From Choricystis sp. odSpoLacu1 (Eukaryota; Chlorophyta; Trebouxiophyceae), in NCBI GenBank assembly GCA_958009055.1, contig OY253655.1, positions 1-64,000 of the forward strand: DNA of 64,000 nucleotides. The letters are read 5' to 3'. Both the position numbers and the translations under genes were made by a program. The notes below the pieces were generated by a model that saw only the letters and a list, made by a program, of their open reading frames with translations, had not been told where the DNA came from and ran no database searches. This document shows positions 4,560 to 14,800 of this stretch, one piece after another; the first letter of the stretch is position 1, and every line of letters starts with the position of its first letter.

Positions 4560-7500
4560 TCAGGCGCTGCCCCCGAACTGAAACCCGGCCGACGTCAGCA
4601 AAACATCGACGCGTTTCGCGTCTATGACGGCGGCCGCCACCAGCGCGCCCACGACCCACAAGTCGATCAACCACACGACGCGCGAGCGCGCCGAAGGCGC
4701 GAGCAAGTAGGCGCTGGTGGCGATGGAGGCGGTGCGCTTCAGAATGGAGGGTTGGCGCAGGGCGGGCGCAAACTCGCCGACGCGGCGGGGGGCCGCGGGG
4801 GCGGGCGCATTGGTGCCGTCGCCCAGGACGGACCCCAGGTCGGAGTCGTTCAGGCTGGCGGCGGCGGCGGACGCGGCTCTGCGGCGTCTGGAGCGGAACA
4901 ACGCGGCGCGGCCGCGTTCGAGGGCGGCGGCGACGCCCAGGTCGGGCACCAGCAGCGCCAGGGGAGGCCACATGTTGGCGGCGACCAGCAGGGCCCACCC
5001 CATGGCGGCGGCCGTTACGGCGGCCGCCCACGCGTCCATGGTGCCCGTCACCGCGCGCCAGATAGTGACGCCGACAGCAGCCACGAGGGCCAGGTAGTAC
5101 AGAATGTGCATCCACACGTACGGCAACACGTCGGTGAATGAGGACGTGCGCTGGTGCGCACGCCTCGCGGCCGCCACCAGGGCCGGCATCAGCATGGCGT
5201 GCGTCCAGCGGCGGGGTGGCGGCGTGGTCGATTTCGAGGGAGGGGCTGGCGCCGATGACGCGACCGACAGGGTGCCCAGCTCGACGTCGGAGCCAGGCAA
5301 CGAGGGCGGCATGGAGGAGGGCGCGTTCGCGCTCTCGGTGCCCGTTTTTTTCGTCACCTTGAAGCCCAGGTCGCCGCCACGGCCGCACGTAAGAGCCAGC
5401 TTGGCGTGGGTCCACACCACATTGAACAGGGCGCGCACGTTGCAGGGAGCCAGCCAGAAGCCGACTTGAGCGGTGCGCAGCATTTCCCCGCCAGCCACGC
5501 CGACGCCGACGTCGCAGCCGTCGATCGACAGGTGGGCAATCCACAGGGCGGCCCGCTGCAGAATGTAGAACAGGCCAAAGGCGAGCAGCAGCTCCCACAT
5601 GTTTTGGACGCTGAAGGGCGTGATGCCAGTGAGCTGGAGAGGCGGTGGGAGGAGGGGTGGGGGAGGAAAGGTGAGAAATAGGGACAGGAGGGAGGGTGGA
5701 AAGATGGGAGCGTCCAGGGAGGCTTCGATCGCGCCGCGGGAGAGGGCGACGCGGGAGGAGGAGGAAGGAGGGAGTGGAAAGAGGGGGGTCGCGATCGGCG
5801 CGCGTTCTATCGTCAACGCGCCCCTTCCCCGACTCCACGCCCCACCCAAAACACCATCCCAACCGTCCGCGATGGTGGCTCGACACCCGCCCGTCAATGG
5901 TGGCTCGAGAAAACGCGCCACCATGATGGGGACAATGCAGTCCCATCATCATCCACTCACTCACCAAATAAACAATCGGCACAGCGCACAGCACCAGCGT
6001 CGACAACCCCAGCAACGGGTACGCGCTGGTGTCGTAGTACAGCAGCCGCTGCGTGGCGTCCATGCCGGGGCGACGCAGCGGGTTGGCGCGCCACCAGATC
6101 TGGAGCGCGCCTGTCGCCCAGCGCAGGCGTTGCTCAAACACTCCCGGCACGTCGTCGGGGGCCAGTCCCGCCTGCAGTTTCTCATCGAGATACATGCTGG
6201 AAAATCCTGACGCCGCCAGAGATTGACTGGTGTTGTTATCCTCTGTGATTGAGCCGTAAGACTGCCCTCCAATCGAAACCAAGGCGGCGCGGTCGAAAAC
6301 GCAGCCGGTGCCGCAACAACACACCGCGTCCGCGCCGTCGCGCCCGGACTGCAGGGGTCCATAAAACAGGCGCGACCTGTGGGCCAGCGCGTCAGCAGCG
6401 TCCACGTTGACAAAGGATTGAGGCGTCTGCAGGAAGCCGGCCCTCTGCTTGCGGCGCCACTTGAGCGCGGACGCGGACGTCCAGTCAGACACGGCGGATG
6501 TGGTGGACAGACGCTTGAGGGCGGCCGGCGGCCCTCCCGGGGCGGGCGACGCGGCCCGCTTCGGCGGCGGCCTGCCGGCGGCGAGGGACGCGGAGTACAG
6601 CACGCTGCCCTGCGGCCGCCCGTCCGGGGCGGGCGACGCAGCCGGAGGCACGCTGATCGGCCGCGGCGACGCTGGCCGCGCGGTGCTACTGCCGCCGTCG
6701 CTCGGGTCGCGCTCCAGGAAATGACCCAGCGTGCGCGCCAGGAAGCGCGAGTCGGTGACCATGTCGCAGTCGAGGACAACGATGTAGTTGGCCGCCACGC
6801 CCGACGCAAACAGGGCGGAGTTGATGTTGCCGGCTTTGGCGTGGTGGGTGACGCCCGCCACTTTGGGGCGGACCAGGCAGTCCAGGCGCGGCAGCGCACG
6901 CGTCGTGGTGGCCCGCATGCGCTGCAGCATGGCCACCATGGCCGGCACGTCGGTGCGGCGCGGATCGTCGCACGACACCACCACGCGCACGCGGTCGGGC
7001 GGGTAGTCCTGCATCAGGGCGGCCAGCACGGTGGGCTGGATGACGTCCACCGGCTCCGAGTAGCAGGCGATGATGATGGAGGCCGATGGGTAGAGCGTGG
7101 TCGTGCCAGACGCCGACGCGAGCGACACGGCCGACCCGTACGCGCGCATGCCACTGGACATGGTGGCCAGGTTGCCAACATTGGCCGACGATTTGCCGTC
7201 CAGCAGGCCGAGGGCCAGGTTGCCCGCGTGGGCAGACGCGTCGTCCGCGGCGGCGGGCGGCAGCAGCATGCGGTGCAGGTTGCGCGGTTTGCGCTCGACT
7301 TGGCGCCAGAGCGCGACGACCAGGGGGAACCACATGATGAAGCCAAAGGCTGGAGGGAGCAGTGATTTGTGTCGGTGAGTGGGTTGGAAGAAAACAATGG
7401 CGCACCGCGTCCACCCCCCCAAAACCACCAAACACCACCAAACCCACCTTCCGTCAACCAAAAGACGACGCTGTACACATAGCGGCCAGTAGACCCTTCA

Positions 7501-10500
7501 TCCAGCGTGCGCAGCGCGCGCCACAGCAGGTAACCCAGCCACGCGGCCGACGCGGTGACCGCGGCGACGCGGAAGCGCATGACGCCGTGCGCCGGCACGA
7601 CGCCGGGCGTCCCCCACCCGTCGTAGCCGCGGTGCGCAAAGGCGGCCGCCTCCGCCAGCTCCGCCTCCGTCAGCGGTTCAGCCGCAGCAGCAGCGGTCGC
7701 CGCGGTCAACTCCGGCACCACAGGCGGCGGGGGCGGCATGGGGGCATCCTTTTTGGTGGCGGCCAGCGCGGCCGCGTCGAGCCAGTCGGCGAGCCCGGCG
7801 TGGCCGCAGTCGCGCGCGACGGCGGCGGGCGTGCGCGCCGCAAAGTTGGTGGCGGCCGCCAAGTCGGGGGCGGCCGCGACAAGGGCGGTGGCAGCGCGAG
7901 CCGACCCGGTGGCGGCTGCATAGTGCAGCGCGGTGTCTTTCCAGCCATCCTTTTTGAGCGCGCGCGGGTCGGCGCCCGCAGCGAGAAGCCACTCGACCGC
8001 GCCGCCGCCGTCGGGGGTGGCGCCCGCCGCGCCCGCCAGCAGGGCGGTGAAGCCAGAGCCGTCGGTGACGGTGCACTCGGGGCTGAAGCGCAGGGAACGA
8101 GTGTGGCGGCGCGACCGAGGCGTGACGCCGCCGCGGCCGCCCTTTTCCTCGGCCAAACCACCCAGCGCGGCCAGCATGCGGGGGTCGTCCCGGGCGGCCG
8201 CCAAACGCACGGCGCCCTCGTACCACAGTTGGTGCATCCCGCCCGCGCGCGCCGCCGCGATGGTGTTGCCGAGGAAATACGCTGCCGCTACGCCCGCTGT
8301 CACCAACGCCAGCAGCAGGCCGTCCAGCTGCCACCCGCCCGTGCGCAGGCGGGCGGCGCCCACCGGGTGGAAGCGAGAGGCGTCAATGTTGCGCAGGGAC
8401 GCGTTGCGCACGTCAGCCACAAACGCGGCCGGCAGCACGGGAAAGTCGCCGACGCCCGAATCGACGCACGCGTCCCACGCGTCGGCGTCGGCGGCGGCGG
8501 ACGCGCCGGAGACAGGGAACTCGCGGTCGTGTGTGGACAGTGTGCCGGGGGTCAGGGCGGACGGATCGATGCGGGAGCCCGCCAGCGCCATGGTGGTCAC
8601 CAGCCAGCCCGCGTTGTAATCGAGCGCGGGTTCGTTGGTTTCGTAACTCGTGCGGTCATCCAGGTGGCCGTGGAAACCCATGGCGTTGGGCTTGACCGAG
8701 TTAGGGCCCCCGACGAGCGCTCCAAACATAGTGGTGGGGTTGGGGGCGGGCGACACGTAGGCAGAGCAGTCGCAAGGCAGAGACCGGTCGGTGGGGCACG
8801 ACGCGCCGCGGTGCGACAGGTAGCGCGGCGGGGATGGGCCCACGCCCACCACAAACGAGCGCCACGCCGACGTGCGTGCGGACGACGCGACCAGGGGCGC
8901 CGCCCGCGTCGCGTTGAGCACGGCCGACCCTTCGACCGACAGGCTGTCGATGAACGGCTGGGAGCGCCCGGGGAGGCGGCCGACCAGCGCGCGCGCTTGC
9001 GACCGCGCCCAGCACCGCCACGCAGTGCGCCGGTTAAACTTGTTCATGGCGGCCGCCAGGTCGGCCAGCTCCATGGCGAGCGCGGTGACTGCAGCCGTCA
9101 GGCGGGCCGACCCCCACGCGTCTTCGTACGCGATGGCCAGGTTGCCGTCCCTGATGTACTGCACACCCGTGCCAAACCCGGGCAGCGGGCCGATGACGCG
9201 GGCGGGAACGTATATTGGGGTGGCCATCCACGACAGGACGGCGAGTTGGGCGGGCTGGGGGATGGAAAGAGGGGGTGAGGGTGGGGTGGGGTGAGGGACG
9301 CGCGCCATCAAGGAGCACATCAAAGGCACACACACCCAAACCCTCCACCCGACCCCACCCCACCCCCCACCCCCACCCCCCCACACACAAACTCACCTTT
9401 GTAAAATGGTCCACCATGTCGGCTTCGCTTGTAAAGTTGGCGCGCGCGGATTCGCGCAGGTCGGCCACGTCCGAGGCCAGCGCCACGCGCGCGGCAAACG
9501 TGCCCGCCAGCGTCCCCACGTTGTCCCAACTCAGCAGATTTGTCTGGGCTGAGCGCGACGAGAAGAAGGCGTTCAGGTGGTCCATGGCCGCGTTCCAATA
9601 CTCCATGGCGGACCGCGGCGGCGCGGTGCCCGCCTCGAGCGCCAGTGCGGTGGCACGCGCCGCGATGGCGGCCGCCTCGGTCGCGTTGTGGCTGCCCATC
9701 CGGTGGGCGCTGCCGTAGCCCGACCGCAGCACGCGCGACCAGTCGACGCCGCCCACCATGACGGTCAGCCAGGTGGCGGCCAGGGCCATGTCGTCGTGGT
9801 AGGAGGAGGAGTTGTAGAACAGGGGCAGGGTGTCGTCGACGTAGGTGGAGTGGAGGCCGGGGTTGTTGGTGCCCTGTGTGAAGGAGGGTGTGGTGATTGG
9901 TGTGAGGGTGTGGTGGTTGGTGTGAGGGTGTGGTTGGTTGGTGTGAGGGTGTGGTGGGTGGTGTGAGGGTGTGGTTGGTTGGTGTGAGGGTGTGGTGTCG
10001 GTCAGACGCCCCTCCCTCCCCTCCCCTCTCTCTCTCTCTCCCTCCTTCTCACCTGCTCAAACAAATCCGCCGCCAACGCCACATAACTGGCCGCCGCCTC
10101 CATCTGGTCGGCCTCGGGAGCCTCGTCGTCCACGTTGACGTAGGCAGCCCCCGCCAGGGCGGCAGCCATGGCGCCCGCGATGTCGGCCGACGGTTTGTCG
10201 GGGGTCAGGCGGCCCACGTCTGACGGCACGGTGATGTCCTCCGCCCGCCCCCAGAAGCCAGCGTGCGACGCGTTCAGGTTGCCGGGGGCAGTCGTGTAGG
10301 CCACAATGGAGCCGGGCGCGTACCTGGCCTGGCGCACAAACCGAGCTCCGTGGTTGATGATGGCGCGCAGGTCGTCGCGGCGCATCGGGTCGACGTCATA
10401 CGCGTCGCGCGCAGACCCCACAAACCCGCCATAGCTCAGCAGGGACAGCGTGTAGGCCAAGGGGAAGACGAACTTGGACACGTCTGCTGCGTCCAGGAAG

Positions 10501-11309
10501 GAGCCGACGAGGGGTTCGCCGTTAGGAGCCGTGTCGTTCAAAAGGGTGTCGCCGCGCCAGGGCCCTATGCGCTCGCGCGCGGTTTCGGACAGGGTGCCCG
10601 ACGATTGCGACCAGTAAAAAAGGTGGGCGGCATCACCCACACAACGCCAGTCGACGCCGGCGTGTCGTTCATCGTCCAGGCCATCCACTTGGGGCCTGCC
10701 GCCCGCGTCCACCACACTGACAGTGCGCGACCAGCCGCCCGCCGCGCGCGCGCGTGCGGTCGTCAGGCACCGCGTGCCAGGCTGCAGGGTGGCGTCGCCT
10801 TCTTGGCGGTAAATAGGTTCCACGTCGCCACCTCCACACAGCCAGCAGTCTGTGGATTTGAGGGTGGGCGGCCAGCTGGGCGGGACGGGCGCTTGGCCGC
10901 ACGTCGGCGCAGCGGAGGGGCACTGACGATCTGGCCAAATGCCCACACCGCTGCCGTTCGCCGCGCCGAAGACGGACGCCAGGTTGACCACGCCAAATGC
11001 GGTGCCGTTGAGGGTGCTGGAGGACTGGGATCCGCCGCACTGCACGCGCTCAAAGCCAGGAACACCGTCGAGCCCGACACGCTGGGCCGCTTCGGCGAGA
11101 GCTTTGTCAGTCGCGTTAACGGTTGGCGACCAAATTGGGTCCGTCGCCTGGCGAGCCTGCGTGCTCAACGCGTCTGCACCCGCCTTGGCCGTCGCTGGCG
11201 GCGGCGGCGCGGGCGGGGGCGGCGTTTTCTGCGCGAGCGCAAGCGCAATGCAACACGCGAGGGCGCCGAGCCGAGCCCTCACGCTGCTGCGACGTCGGCC
11301 GACCCCCAT
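4560..11309 (-). CDS. GH9 cellulase - ankyrin - cellulose-synthase-like GT2 fusion membrane protein
   Basis: Five exons (11309-10053, 9873-9397, 9254-7448, 7349-5965, 5633-4560) splice in phase to 1,999 residues. A signal peptide is followed by a GH9 domain: 'DAADVSKFVFP' (~272; both Asp of DAGD kept), 'DKPSADIAG' (~375), 'PPRYLSHRGAS' and 'NEPALDYNAG' (~785, catalytic Glu kept). Then come one membrane span (~890), ankyrin-like repeats (~965-1075), two spans (~1140-1195) and a BcsA/CesA-type GT2 domain with 'SCDD' (~1307), 'LDCDM' (~1374), 'SITEDNNTS' (~1549) and 'QRLRW' (~1588). About five more spans follow. Exon 3 alone (602 codons without a stop) holds the GH9 C-terminal half, ankyrin repeats and pre-GT2 spans, so the fusion does not rest on one splice. 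Inferred topology: GH9 outside, ankyrin and GT2 in the cytosol. Likely role: beta-glucan (cellulose) synthesis with built-in chain trimming. Confidence 0.88.
9893..9998. repeat. Intronic minisatellite
   Basis: About five copies of a ~16-21-base unit, GGTGTGAGGGTGTGGT plus a short spacer, lie inside the first intron (10052-9874) of the GH9-GT2 gene. The unit is low complexity and does not touch either splice site. Confidence 0.8.
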
Positions 11310-11875: not shown

Positions 11876-14800
11876 CTACTCTTTGACCCAGTCTTTGAGG
11901 CCATCATCCCACGCAAACACTTGCAGGGGCGCGATGCGCGTGTTGAACGTGAGTTTGACGGCTTTGGCGCGGTCCACGGACGCCGGGCTGCGCGCGACGG
12001 CCCACCCCGTCTCACCGTTGGTCACGTTGCGCGCGGTGGCGATCAAGGCGTCCAGGCTGGTCATGTCGACCCCGTTGAGCGACAGCAGCACGGCGGTCGA
12101 CGTGGCCGACGTTTGAGACACCAGCGTCGCAAACGTCGACCCGGGCGCCGCAAACGACATCAGCACGCCCGGGCCCGCGCCCCCCGCCCCATACTTGAAG
12201 CGCCAGGCGCCCACCAGGTCGTGGAACACGCCCCCCGCAAATTTGGCGTAGCGGCGCACCCGCTCCCGGTTGGCGTCCAGGACACCGACGTCGACGTCGG
12301 TCAGCGTGTAGTTGCGGTAGACTTGCACCGGCATCGTCCCGTTGACATACGCGTCCGACGCCAGCGCAAACACGGTGTAGTCGTCCCGCAGCAGGGTGCC
12401 GTTGAACCGGTACAGAATGTCGCCGGGGAGGAGGGTGGTGAACGATGGCGACCAGGGGGCGACAGCCGTGATGACGGTGACCTGGGGCACGCCCCCCTTG
12501 TCCGAGGGTCCCACCTCGGCCACCGCGGACGCGGGCAGGGCGTAGTGGCGGGCGGCCAGGCCGGTGGCGATTTGCTGGAGGGGGAGAGGAGGGAAGGAGG
12601 TGTCGCATTTTTTTCGACCGAATGATTCCCCCTCTCCTCCCCCCCCCCACCTGTCCCCACCCACCTTGGTCGTGATGCCCAACAGATGGGCCGGCGGCGT
12701 CTTGCCGGCCACCACGTCGTCCAAGCCTTGAGCCACATAGTCCGCCAACCGCTCAAACGAGAGCGTGCCCTCTGCCGAGTTGGAGTCGTGCACCGCCACG
12801 ACGCGGCCTTGAGCATCGAACACGGGCGCAAACCTCGAGTTGCGGGCGATGGGGATGTTGGTCTGCAGGTTGGAGGTGCGCACGAGGGCGGTGCCCTCGC
12901 GCGCCGCAAACGTCGCGTCGTCGGCAGCGGCCAGCATCAACAGCTTGTCTCCGGGGGAGACGGTGGTCCCAGAGGCCAGGGGCAGGGCGACGACGCCGTC
13001 GGGGGCGTCCTTGCGGTCGACACCCAGGAAGAGGACGTAGTCGGAGTAGAGGAAGCGAGCCTAATGAGGGTGCAGCAGGTGGGGGAGGGGTGGGCGTGAA
13101 AAAACGGCGACGAAACCTTCCCTCCTCCGTCCCTCCTCCCCTCCCCTCTCTTCTCACCTTGGCCGTCGTCCCATCATAAAACGTGACGTCAAACGTGGTG
13201 GGCGAATTCGTCGTCAGCGACGCCGTCGCAATGATGACGCGGTCGTCCGTCACGTTCACAACCACCCCCGAGTGCGACGCGTCGCCGCGGGACGCGTCGT
13301 CCAGGGGGACGTCCGTCACGCGGCGCACCGCCACCACGCCCTTGCGGAAGCGGGATTTGTCGGCGGCGGACCACACGCCCGACGACGCGGCAGCGGGCTT
13401 GGAGGCGGCGAGCTCGGGGGCGGGCTTGGTGGTGGTGGTGGGTTTGGGCGGCGCGTCGGCAGCAGTGCCGTCGGTCGCGCCATCAGTGGAGGTGCCCGAC
13501 TTGGCGGCCGTGGAAGCCGCCTGCAGCAGGGCGCGGCCAGCTTTGGCGGGCTTGGCGGTGGCGGTGGTGGGGGCAGCTGCAGGCGCGGCGGTCGCCGGCG
13601 CGGCCGCATCACCACCCACCCCACTCCCCGTTGCATCCACCCACTCCAGCTTGGCGCCGTCCCATGTGAACACTTGCAGCGGGTAGCGCCCCATGTTGAA
13701 GTTAATCTCCACCACGCGGCCCGAGGGGACGGACGCGGCGGAGGCCAGGTCGCGGGCGACAGCGTAGCCGCTGCTCCCGGGGGCCACCCGGTTGACAGCT
13801 TTCACAAAGTCGTCCAAATTGGCCACTTTCTGGCCATTGATCTGGGTGATCAGCATGCGGCCATCGCCCGCCGCATAGGAATCCGACGCTTGGGCGGCGC
13901 GGGAGGAGGCGGCCGGGCGGACGGCGGTCAGCCGCGCGAGGGGGGTCCCCGGCTCAGCCTCCGTCATCAGCACGCCGGCCGACGTGCCGGCGGATGGCAG
14001 GGAGAAGCGGGCTTCGTCGGACAGGTCTTGGAAGGTGCCACCGCCGAAGAGAGCTGGTGGTGGTGGGGAGAGAGAGGAAACGTGAGTGTGTGTGCGTCTG
14101 CGTTTGCTCCCCCTTGTGCCCCTCCCTCTCTCCCCCCCCCCCCCCCCCGCCCCCTTCCCGCTCACCAAACTTCTTCACTTTCAGCGCATCCAGGTTGCGC
14201 ACCGGCACCTTGGCCAAATCCACGCGCGACCCGTTGCGGTAGACGACGACGGGGACGGTGGCCCCCACGCGCGCGCCCGCCGCGCGGTCGACCGCCATCA
14301 CATCGTCACCCACGGTCGTGCCATCCACCTTGACAATGATGTCGCCGGGTTGCAGGCCGCCCGCACCATCCACGCCAGGCAGCAGGGACGCCACCGAGAT
14401 GACTTGGGGGGTGCCGCCATCGGTGGGCTTGGGGACGGCGTCGGCGGGCAGGCGGTAGGAACGGCGCGCGACGCCCGCGGGCAGCAGCCTCAGCGTGGCG
14501 CCCAGGTCGCCGCGGGGGGGGGTGCGGCCCGCCAGCAGGGCGTCCAGGGCGGCCTTGATCTTGTCGATGGGGACGGCCTGGGAGTAGGCGCCTTCCATGC
14601 CTGAGGGTGGGAGGAGGGGAGGGTTGGTGAGCAAACCACACGCGCGTCGCTCTCTTCTCTCTCCTTTGTCCACCACCACACCCTTCCCAGTCTCACTCTC
14701 TCACCTGAATGCATGGCCACTACGCTGCCATCGCTGGCCAGCACAGGCGACCCCGCCAGCCCCGCCGCCCGCTCAAACGTGGTCAACAGGCGCCGCGCGG

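Follow-up and report, generated by a model that had tools for sequence, protein, structure and literature searches.

A green-algal gene joining a GH9 domain, ankyrin repeats and a BcsA-type GT2 core, in the reverse order of the common chlorophyte GT2-GH9 fusion

It has long been asked why the synthesis of cellulose requires a cellulase, a puzzle posed by KORRIGAN in plants and by BcsZ in bacteria. KORRIGAN is a membrane GH9 enzyme and a separate protein without a synthase domain, and the bacterial partner hydrolase BcsZ, a GH8 enzyme, is a separate protein as well. KORRIGAN1 works with CESA, according to an excerpt of one study (PMC4226561), and in the tunicate CesA-GH6 protein the hydrolase follows TM7 on the C-terminal side (PMC6523144, partial text). 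For Coccomyxa subellipsoidea, a fusion of GH9 and GT2 has been reported (PMC3446292, partial text, in which the domain order is not stated). Among the titles and abstract openings retrieved from the open-licence PubMed Central literature, none names a protein combining GH9, ankyrin and GT2, and the term GH9 is absent from the available portions of two papers dealing with the cell walls and glycosyltransferases of algae (PMC3797821, PMC10762512).

The preliminary description of the locus studied here knew of no described GH9-ankyrin-GT2 fusion. The reversed order with ankyrin repeats in between was indeed not found elsewhere, but the joining of GH9 and GT2 was already known, both from the Coccomyxa report and in core chlorophytes, and the novelty is narrower than first claimed: it lies in the reversed order with ankyrin in between, not in the domain joining itself.

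The fusion gene and its domains

The window, i.e., the whole stretch of 64,000 nucleotides that was analysed (GC ~68.5%), carries a five-exon gene with GT-AG introns of 179, 142, 98 and 331 nt. The joined exons comprise 6,000 nt with a single terminal stop and encode 1,999 aa; splicing and translation thus agree with the five in-phase exons and ~1,999 residues originally proposed. The features of the gene are as follows.

4560..11309, minus strand: whole fusion gene, five exons, 1,999 aa (spliced translation without internal stop; paralogue shares the intron sites)
10053..11309, minus strand: exon 1, putative signal peptide and initial part of GH9
9397..9873, minus strand: exon 2, GH9
8379..10649, minus strand: GH9 domain, residues 221-870, introns included, with Asp273, Asp276 and Glu786 (Pfam PF00759, PDB endoglucanases, catalytic columns)
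7448..9254, minus strand: exon 3, end of GH9, membrane span, ankyrin repeats and first pre-GT2 span
8271..8327, minus strand: membrane span, residues 888-906 (hydropathy 1.93)
7779..8000, minus strand: ankyrin repeats, residues ~997-1070 (Pfam Ank_4 above cut-off, Ank_2 in the same stretch)
7315..7568, minus strand: two pre-GT2 spans, residues 1141-1159 and 1174-1192, with intron 3 within (hydropathy)
5965..7349, minus strand: exon 4, second pre-GT2 span, GT2 catalytic core and first span after the core
6118..7089, minus strand: GT2 core, residues 1268-1591, with SCDD, DCD, TED and QRLRW (Pfam; best PDB match BcsA chain 5ej1, 5.4e-36; motifs)
6421..6705, minus strand: Pro/Ala/Ser-rich insert within GT2, residues 1396-1490 (100% identical in the two copies of this genome; the relative P0001 differs)
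6349..6740, minus strand: 392-nt tract identical to the paralogue on C1, likely gene conversion (paralogue alignment)
4560..5633, minus strand: exon 5, remaining spans, FKVTKK motif and C-terminus
5346..5363, minus strand: FKVTKK, fitting FxVTxK (motif)

The protein thus reads, from the N-terminus, as signal peptide, GH9, one span, two to three ankyrin repeats, two spans, a BcsA-type GT2 core and further spans. A secreted GH9 domain with its catalytic residues had been predicted, and the profile searches bear out the GH9 assignment: PF00759 matched the whole protein at 1.5e-50 (173.3 bits vs a cut-off of 27.7), covering residues 227-671 and a second stretch inside the first 900 residues, and the best PDB matches of the domain were endoglucanases (1.4e-36). 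D273, D276 and E786 are present and align with 14 stand-alone GH9 rows reading D, D, E. On this basis, a catalytically competent GH9 is the best reading of the sequence.

The GT2 also lies where it had been expected, with PF03552 (Cellulose_synt, 2.8e-24), PF13641 (2.8e-12) and PF13632 (4.4e-9) falling between residues 1268 and 1743. Pfam, PDB and motifs agree on a BcsA/CesA-type enzyme, 13 of the 14 PDB matches being named cellulose synthase and the remaining one CslF6. SCDD stands at residue 1306, DCD at 1374, TED at 1549, QRLRW at 1587 and FKVTKK at 1733; the last fits FxVTxK, which we take to be the gating-loop motif of BcsA. Among 25 GT2 sequences, the DCD, ED and Q..RW columns are invariant or nearly so, and the predicted flanking membrane spans are present by hydropathy. 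The Pfam matches of the protein include no GH6 and, up to E 1, no PilZ domain (PF07238); filing it as a bacterial BcsA was ruled out by the missing PilZ.

The ankyrin-like repeats of the preliminary description are present (PF13637 Ank_4, 7.4e-6, 26.6 vs a cut-off of 22.7), and ankyrin models also exceed their cut-offs in P0001 and in the ankyrin piece of the paralogue; the stretch is, however, shorter than implied, amounting to ~2-3 units. An AlphaFold model of this stretch, built on three sequences, reached a mean pLDDT of 38, which is too low for the model to be of use.

The protein opens with basic residues followed by a hydrophobic stretch that ends in small residues (ALALAQ), a pattern suggestive of an N-terminal signal peptide. 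Because of the spans at residues 888-906, 1141-1159 and 1174-1192 and those after the GT2, we infer that GH9 lies outside (or in the lumen), with ankyrin repeats and GT2 in the cytosol. Between residues 28 and 887, 10 N-glycosylation sequons occur vs 4.0 expected by shuffling (7 of 1,000 shuffles gave as many), and none was found in residues 907-1140. In the paralogue, a single sequon falls within the predicted cytosolic ankyrin stretch, and in both genes sequons occur further C-terminal, including in the GT2. The originally predicted topology, with a single span between GH9 and a cytosolic ankyrin stretch, is consistent with sequence, paralogue and selection alike.

Paralogue, close relative and genomic surroundings

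In the genome searched (14.6 Mb, 19 contigs), a full-length paralogue was found at C1:765038-771593, encoding 1,994 aa with 81% identity across 1,990 codons. It has the four introns of the window gene at the same positions, plus one extra intron inside exon 1. The four shared introns are 41-69% identical vs 82-89% for exons 2-5, to which this comparison was confined. The third copy, P0001, derives from a 29.8-kb public ENA contig; its predicted protein starts at exon 3, shows the order GH9, ankyrin, GT2 and reads through intron 3. This intron marks the ankyrin-GT2 junction and measures 98 nt in the window gene, 97 nt in the paralogue and 111 nt in P0001 (a manual count from its sequence). With these lengths it is not in-frame coding in all three copies, and therefore only splicing preserves the frame in all of them. 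The order GH9-ankyrin-GT2 is kept in the three copies, all of which are close relatives. Window gene and paralogue retain Asp, Asp, Glu and the surrounding GH9 motifs; in P0001, where the initial portion of GH9 is missing, the Glu is retained.

Between window gene and paralogue, dN/dS is 0.30 overall, with values of 0.21 for GH9, 0.14 for the ankyrin stretch and 0.37 and 0.10 for two GT2 stretches; constraint is weaker in the linker (0.44), at the C-terminus (0.43) and, most of all, between residues 1196 and 1266 (0.67). About one third of the synonymous sites differ overall. The 392 identical nucleotides (window 6740-6349 vs paralogue 6588-6979 of locus L018) span the GT2 insert, and a recent gene conversion over this insert is likely.

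The fusion gene in the window is confirmed. Two separate genes were ruled out by the junction, at which the spliced frame has no stop and which recurs in the paralogue and P0001. A gene cluster around the fusion was considered and rejected: of the two adjoining ORFs scanned with Pfam, one had no match and the other, located upstream on the same strand (window 11876-13060), a weak PDZ match below the cut-off. Scanning the window for Rfam families and tRNAs gave no hits.

The genome holds at least seven GH9 genes: two with GH9-ankyrin-GT2, four with GT2 followed by GH9 and one for which the 6.5 kb of sequence read gave no match to GT2. One LHC protein of this genome matches chlorophyll a/b LHC chains (first 9vfj LHCI-2, followed by further 9vfj LHCI chains and by LHCII proteins); together with the best long named matches of the C12 gene, Elliptochloris and Coccomyxa, this points to Trebouxiophyceae. 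Among the four, the loci on C12 and C1:628k are continuous, and those on C16 and C4:314k were judged by the order of tblastn pieces. The C4 locus (L023, G000:C4:311501-318500) is interrupted by in-frame stops at two sites that are occupied by Tyr in its relatives and is either a pseudogene or an assembly error. In the upstream acidic exon of the C12 gene, an apparent frame slip occurs at a G run (L019, ~6870). The search for the window-type GT2 gave two close copies, all other matches being at most 40% identical; a further GT2 (G000:C3:1016345-1017199) has an open frame of 656 aa that shares 37% identity with the later portion of the GT2 exon of the window gene.

Relation to the chlorophyte GT2-GH9 fusions

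A search with the C12 gene (GT2 then GH9), of which the core had been modelled, returned 105 proteins. Long GT2-GH9 fusions were found in Elliptochloris and Coccomyxa, which gave the best long named matches, and in Myrmecia, Trebouxia, Botryococcus, Symbiochloris, Apatococcus, Chlorella, Auxenochlorella, Micractinium, Chlamydomonas and Haematococcus. The fusion of both domains is therefore known and common in core chlorophytes. In a set of 176 proteins (169 fetched and 7 own), 60 carry both domains, 57 in the order GT2-GH9 vs 3 in the order GH9-GT2 (window gene, paralogue and P0001), a count drawn mostly from the GT2-GH9 query and biased towards that order. The set includes near-duplicates (P0133, probably the gene at C1:628k from another assembly, and P0065, which shares 96% identity with the C12 core), and the pieces of three loci of this genome were concatenated in query order, their genomic order being taken separately. 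The search with the window GH9 yielded P0001 alone among the 7,999 candidates scored in the whole-protein length range. Each of the three protein searches scored ~8,000 candidates of certain lengths sharing most words, for which reason the failure to find further GH9-ankyrin-GT2 proteins is weak evidence.

The two classes also differ in their catalytic residues. In the GT2-GH9 proteins (55 of the 57 rows aligned, two with a GH9 stretch of ~200 aa or less being dropped), the first Asp is present in 1 of the 53 rows that have a letter in this column; for the acid Glu the count is 1 of 46, and for all three residues together 1 of 45. The second Asp was scored in 6 of 54, a position that is ambiguous, as 33 of the 55 rows hold some Asp or Glu there and HMMER placed the Asp of the C12 gene onto it. 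The one row among these 45 with all three residues is the C16 locus of this genome (L022, G000:C16:264501-271000), a locus of GT2-GH9 type with Asp, Asp and Glu intact.

The GT2 phylogeny comprised 34 rows, of which 6 were window-type, 11 bacterial and 17 from chlorophytes or other eukaryotes. It placed the window-type GT2s, including metagenome relatives and one Symbiochloris protein, in one group (100/100) and those of the GT2-GH9 type, both fused and unfused, in another (100/99); a quick tree of 65 rows gave the same grouping. A Symbiochloris protein model, P0007, begins within the GT2. The window GT2 is, by this phylogeny, of a lineage distinct from the GT2 of the common chlorophyte fusion. 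The window-type GT2 may be closer either to the chlorophyte or to the bacterial GT2s (94/92). Since the groups are separate and well supported, the window gene is no recent permutation of a GT2-GH9 gene as far as its GT2 part is concerned. For the GH9 part, such a permutation is disfavoured by a 34-row tree in which the window GH9 groups with those that are intact (87/91, not starred). GH9 may have been recruited separately, but the AU test did not reject one clade uniting the window GH9 with the degenerate ones (p 0.248).

Taken together, these comparisons make it possible, if somewhat short of probable, that glucan synthase and GH9 were joined at least twice in green algae, from two synthase lineages and in opposite order. 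The widespread outcome would mostly be devoid of the usual GH9 catalytic residues, a pseudo-cellulase that perhaps guides the chain, and the other, found only in this alga and a close relative, would have a live GH9 and ankyrin repeats, with both outcomes in one genome.

Proposed function and comparison with known systems

The spliced frame, the domains and motifs, the order kept in three copies and the purifying selection argue for a single polypeptide, which is probably a BcsA-type membrane beta-glucan synthase (the product probably being beta-1,4-glucan) with an extracellular GH9 endoglucanase. After cleavage of the signal peptide, GH9 would face the outside or the lumen, and the single span would bring the chain back into the cytosol, where the ankyrin repeats would lie. 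Two spans would then lead to the cytosolic GT2, which would elongate the glucan from UDP-glucose and export it through the membrane, and the tethered GH9 could trim or edit the emerging chain. The ankyrin repeats may serve to bind a partner or to control the synthase, the PilZ domain known from bacterial BcsA being absent here. Synthesis inside and cutting outside by one protein is plausible, and the earlier idea of such a coupling with chain editing is favoured by sequence, paralogue and selection.

The GH9 of the window protein could instead be a chain-guiding or binding module rather than a working cellulase, as is possibly the case in the GT2-GH9 class, in which the near-complete loss of first Asp and acid Glu indicates that a GH9 can persist beside a synthase without the usual residues. 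The retention of Asp, Asp, Glu and the nearby motifs in window gene and paralogue, together with the low dN/dS of GH9, makes this unlikely. Slightly less likely still is a working protein that is no cellulose synthase, being placed in the endomembrane system or handling a different beta-glucan. GT2 enzymes make several polymers, the product is not readable from sequence, and this GT2 lineage is unlike the chlorophyte one; however, all PDB matches but CslF6 are named cellulose synthase, and a GH9 partner suits beta-1,4-glucan. A gene-model artefact, in which two genes were merged, one for GH9 and ankyrin and the other for GT2, is highly improbable: the database proteins P0002 and P0010 split the locus, appearing by eye to be pieces of the C1 paralogue, but there is no stop between the domains after splicing, and junction and order recur in three copies despite the differing lengths of intron 3.

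A synthase and a cellulase in one protein, as favoured here, would be fixed in ratio, place and orientation, and one catalytic residue could therefore be altered while the rest of the machine stays intact. The contrast with the GH9-degenerate fusions could show whether cutting or mere contact with the chain is needed and, if the proposal is true, synthases tethered to live and dead cellulases could be compared within one cell.

Compared to the known systems, KORRIGAN1 and CESA likewise place a GH9 alongside a cellulose synthase, but are separate proteins in the available account (PMC4226561), whereas the window protein holds its GT2 in the same polypeptide. The tunicate CesA-GH6 protein, as far as the partial text describes it (PMC6523144), also unites synthase and hydrolase in one chain, yet with a C-terminal GH6 instead of an N-terminal GH9. 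Bacterial BcsA, the best PDB match, shares the GT2 motifs and FxVTxK; the window protein differs from it by having no PilZ match, by the added ankyrin and GH9 parts and by a large insert in the GT2. Closest is the chlorophyte GT2-GH9 fusion (P0066, P0067 and others), which likewise combines both domains in one membrane protein of green algae. In the sequences compared, however, its GT2 precedes GH9, its Pfam lists include no ankyrin model, its GH9 catalytic columns are mostly changed and its GT2 belongs to another lineage, whereas the window protein has the reversed order, ankyrin repeats and an intact GH9.
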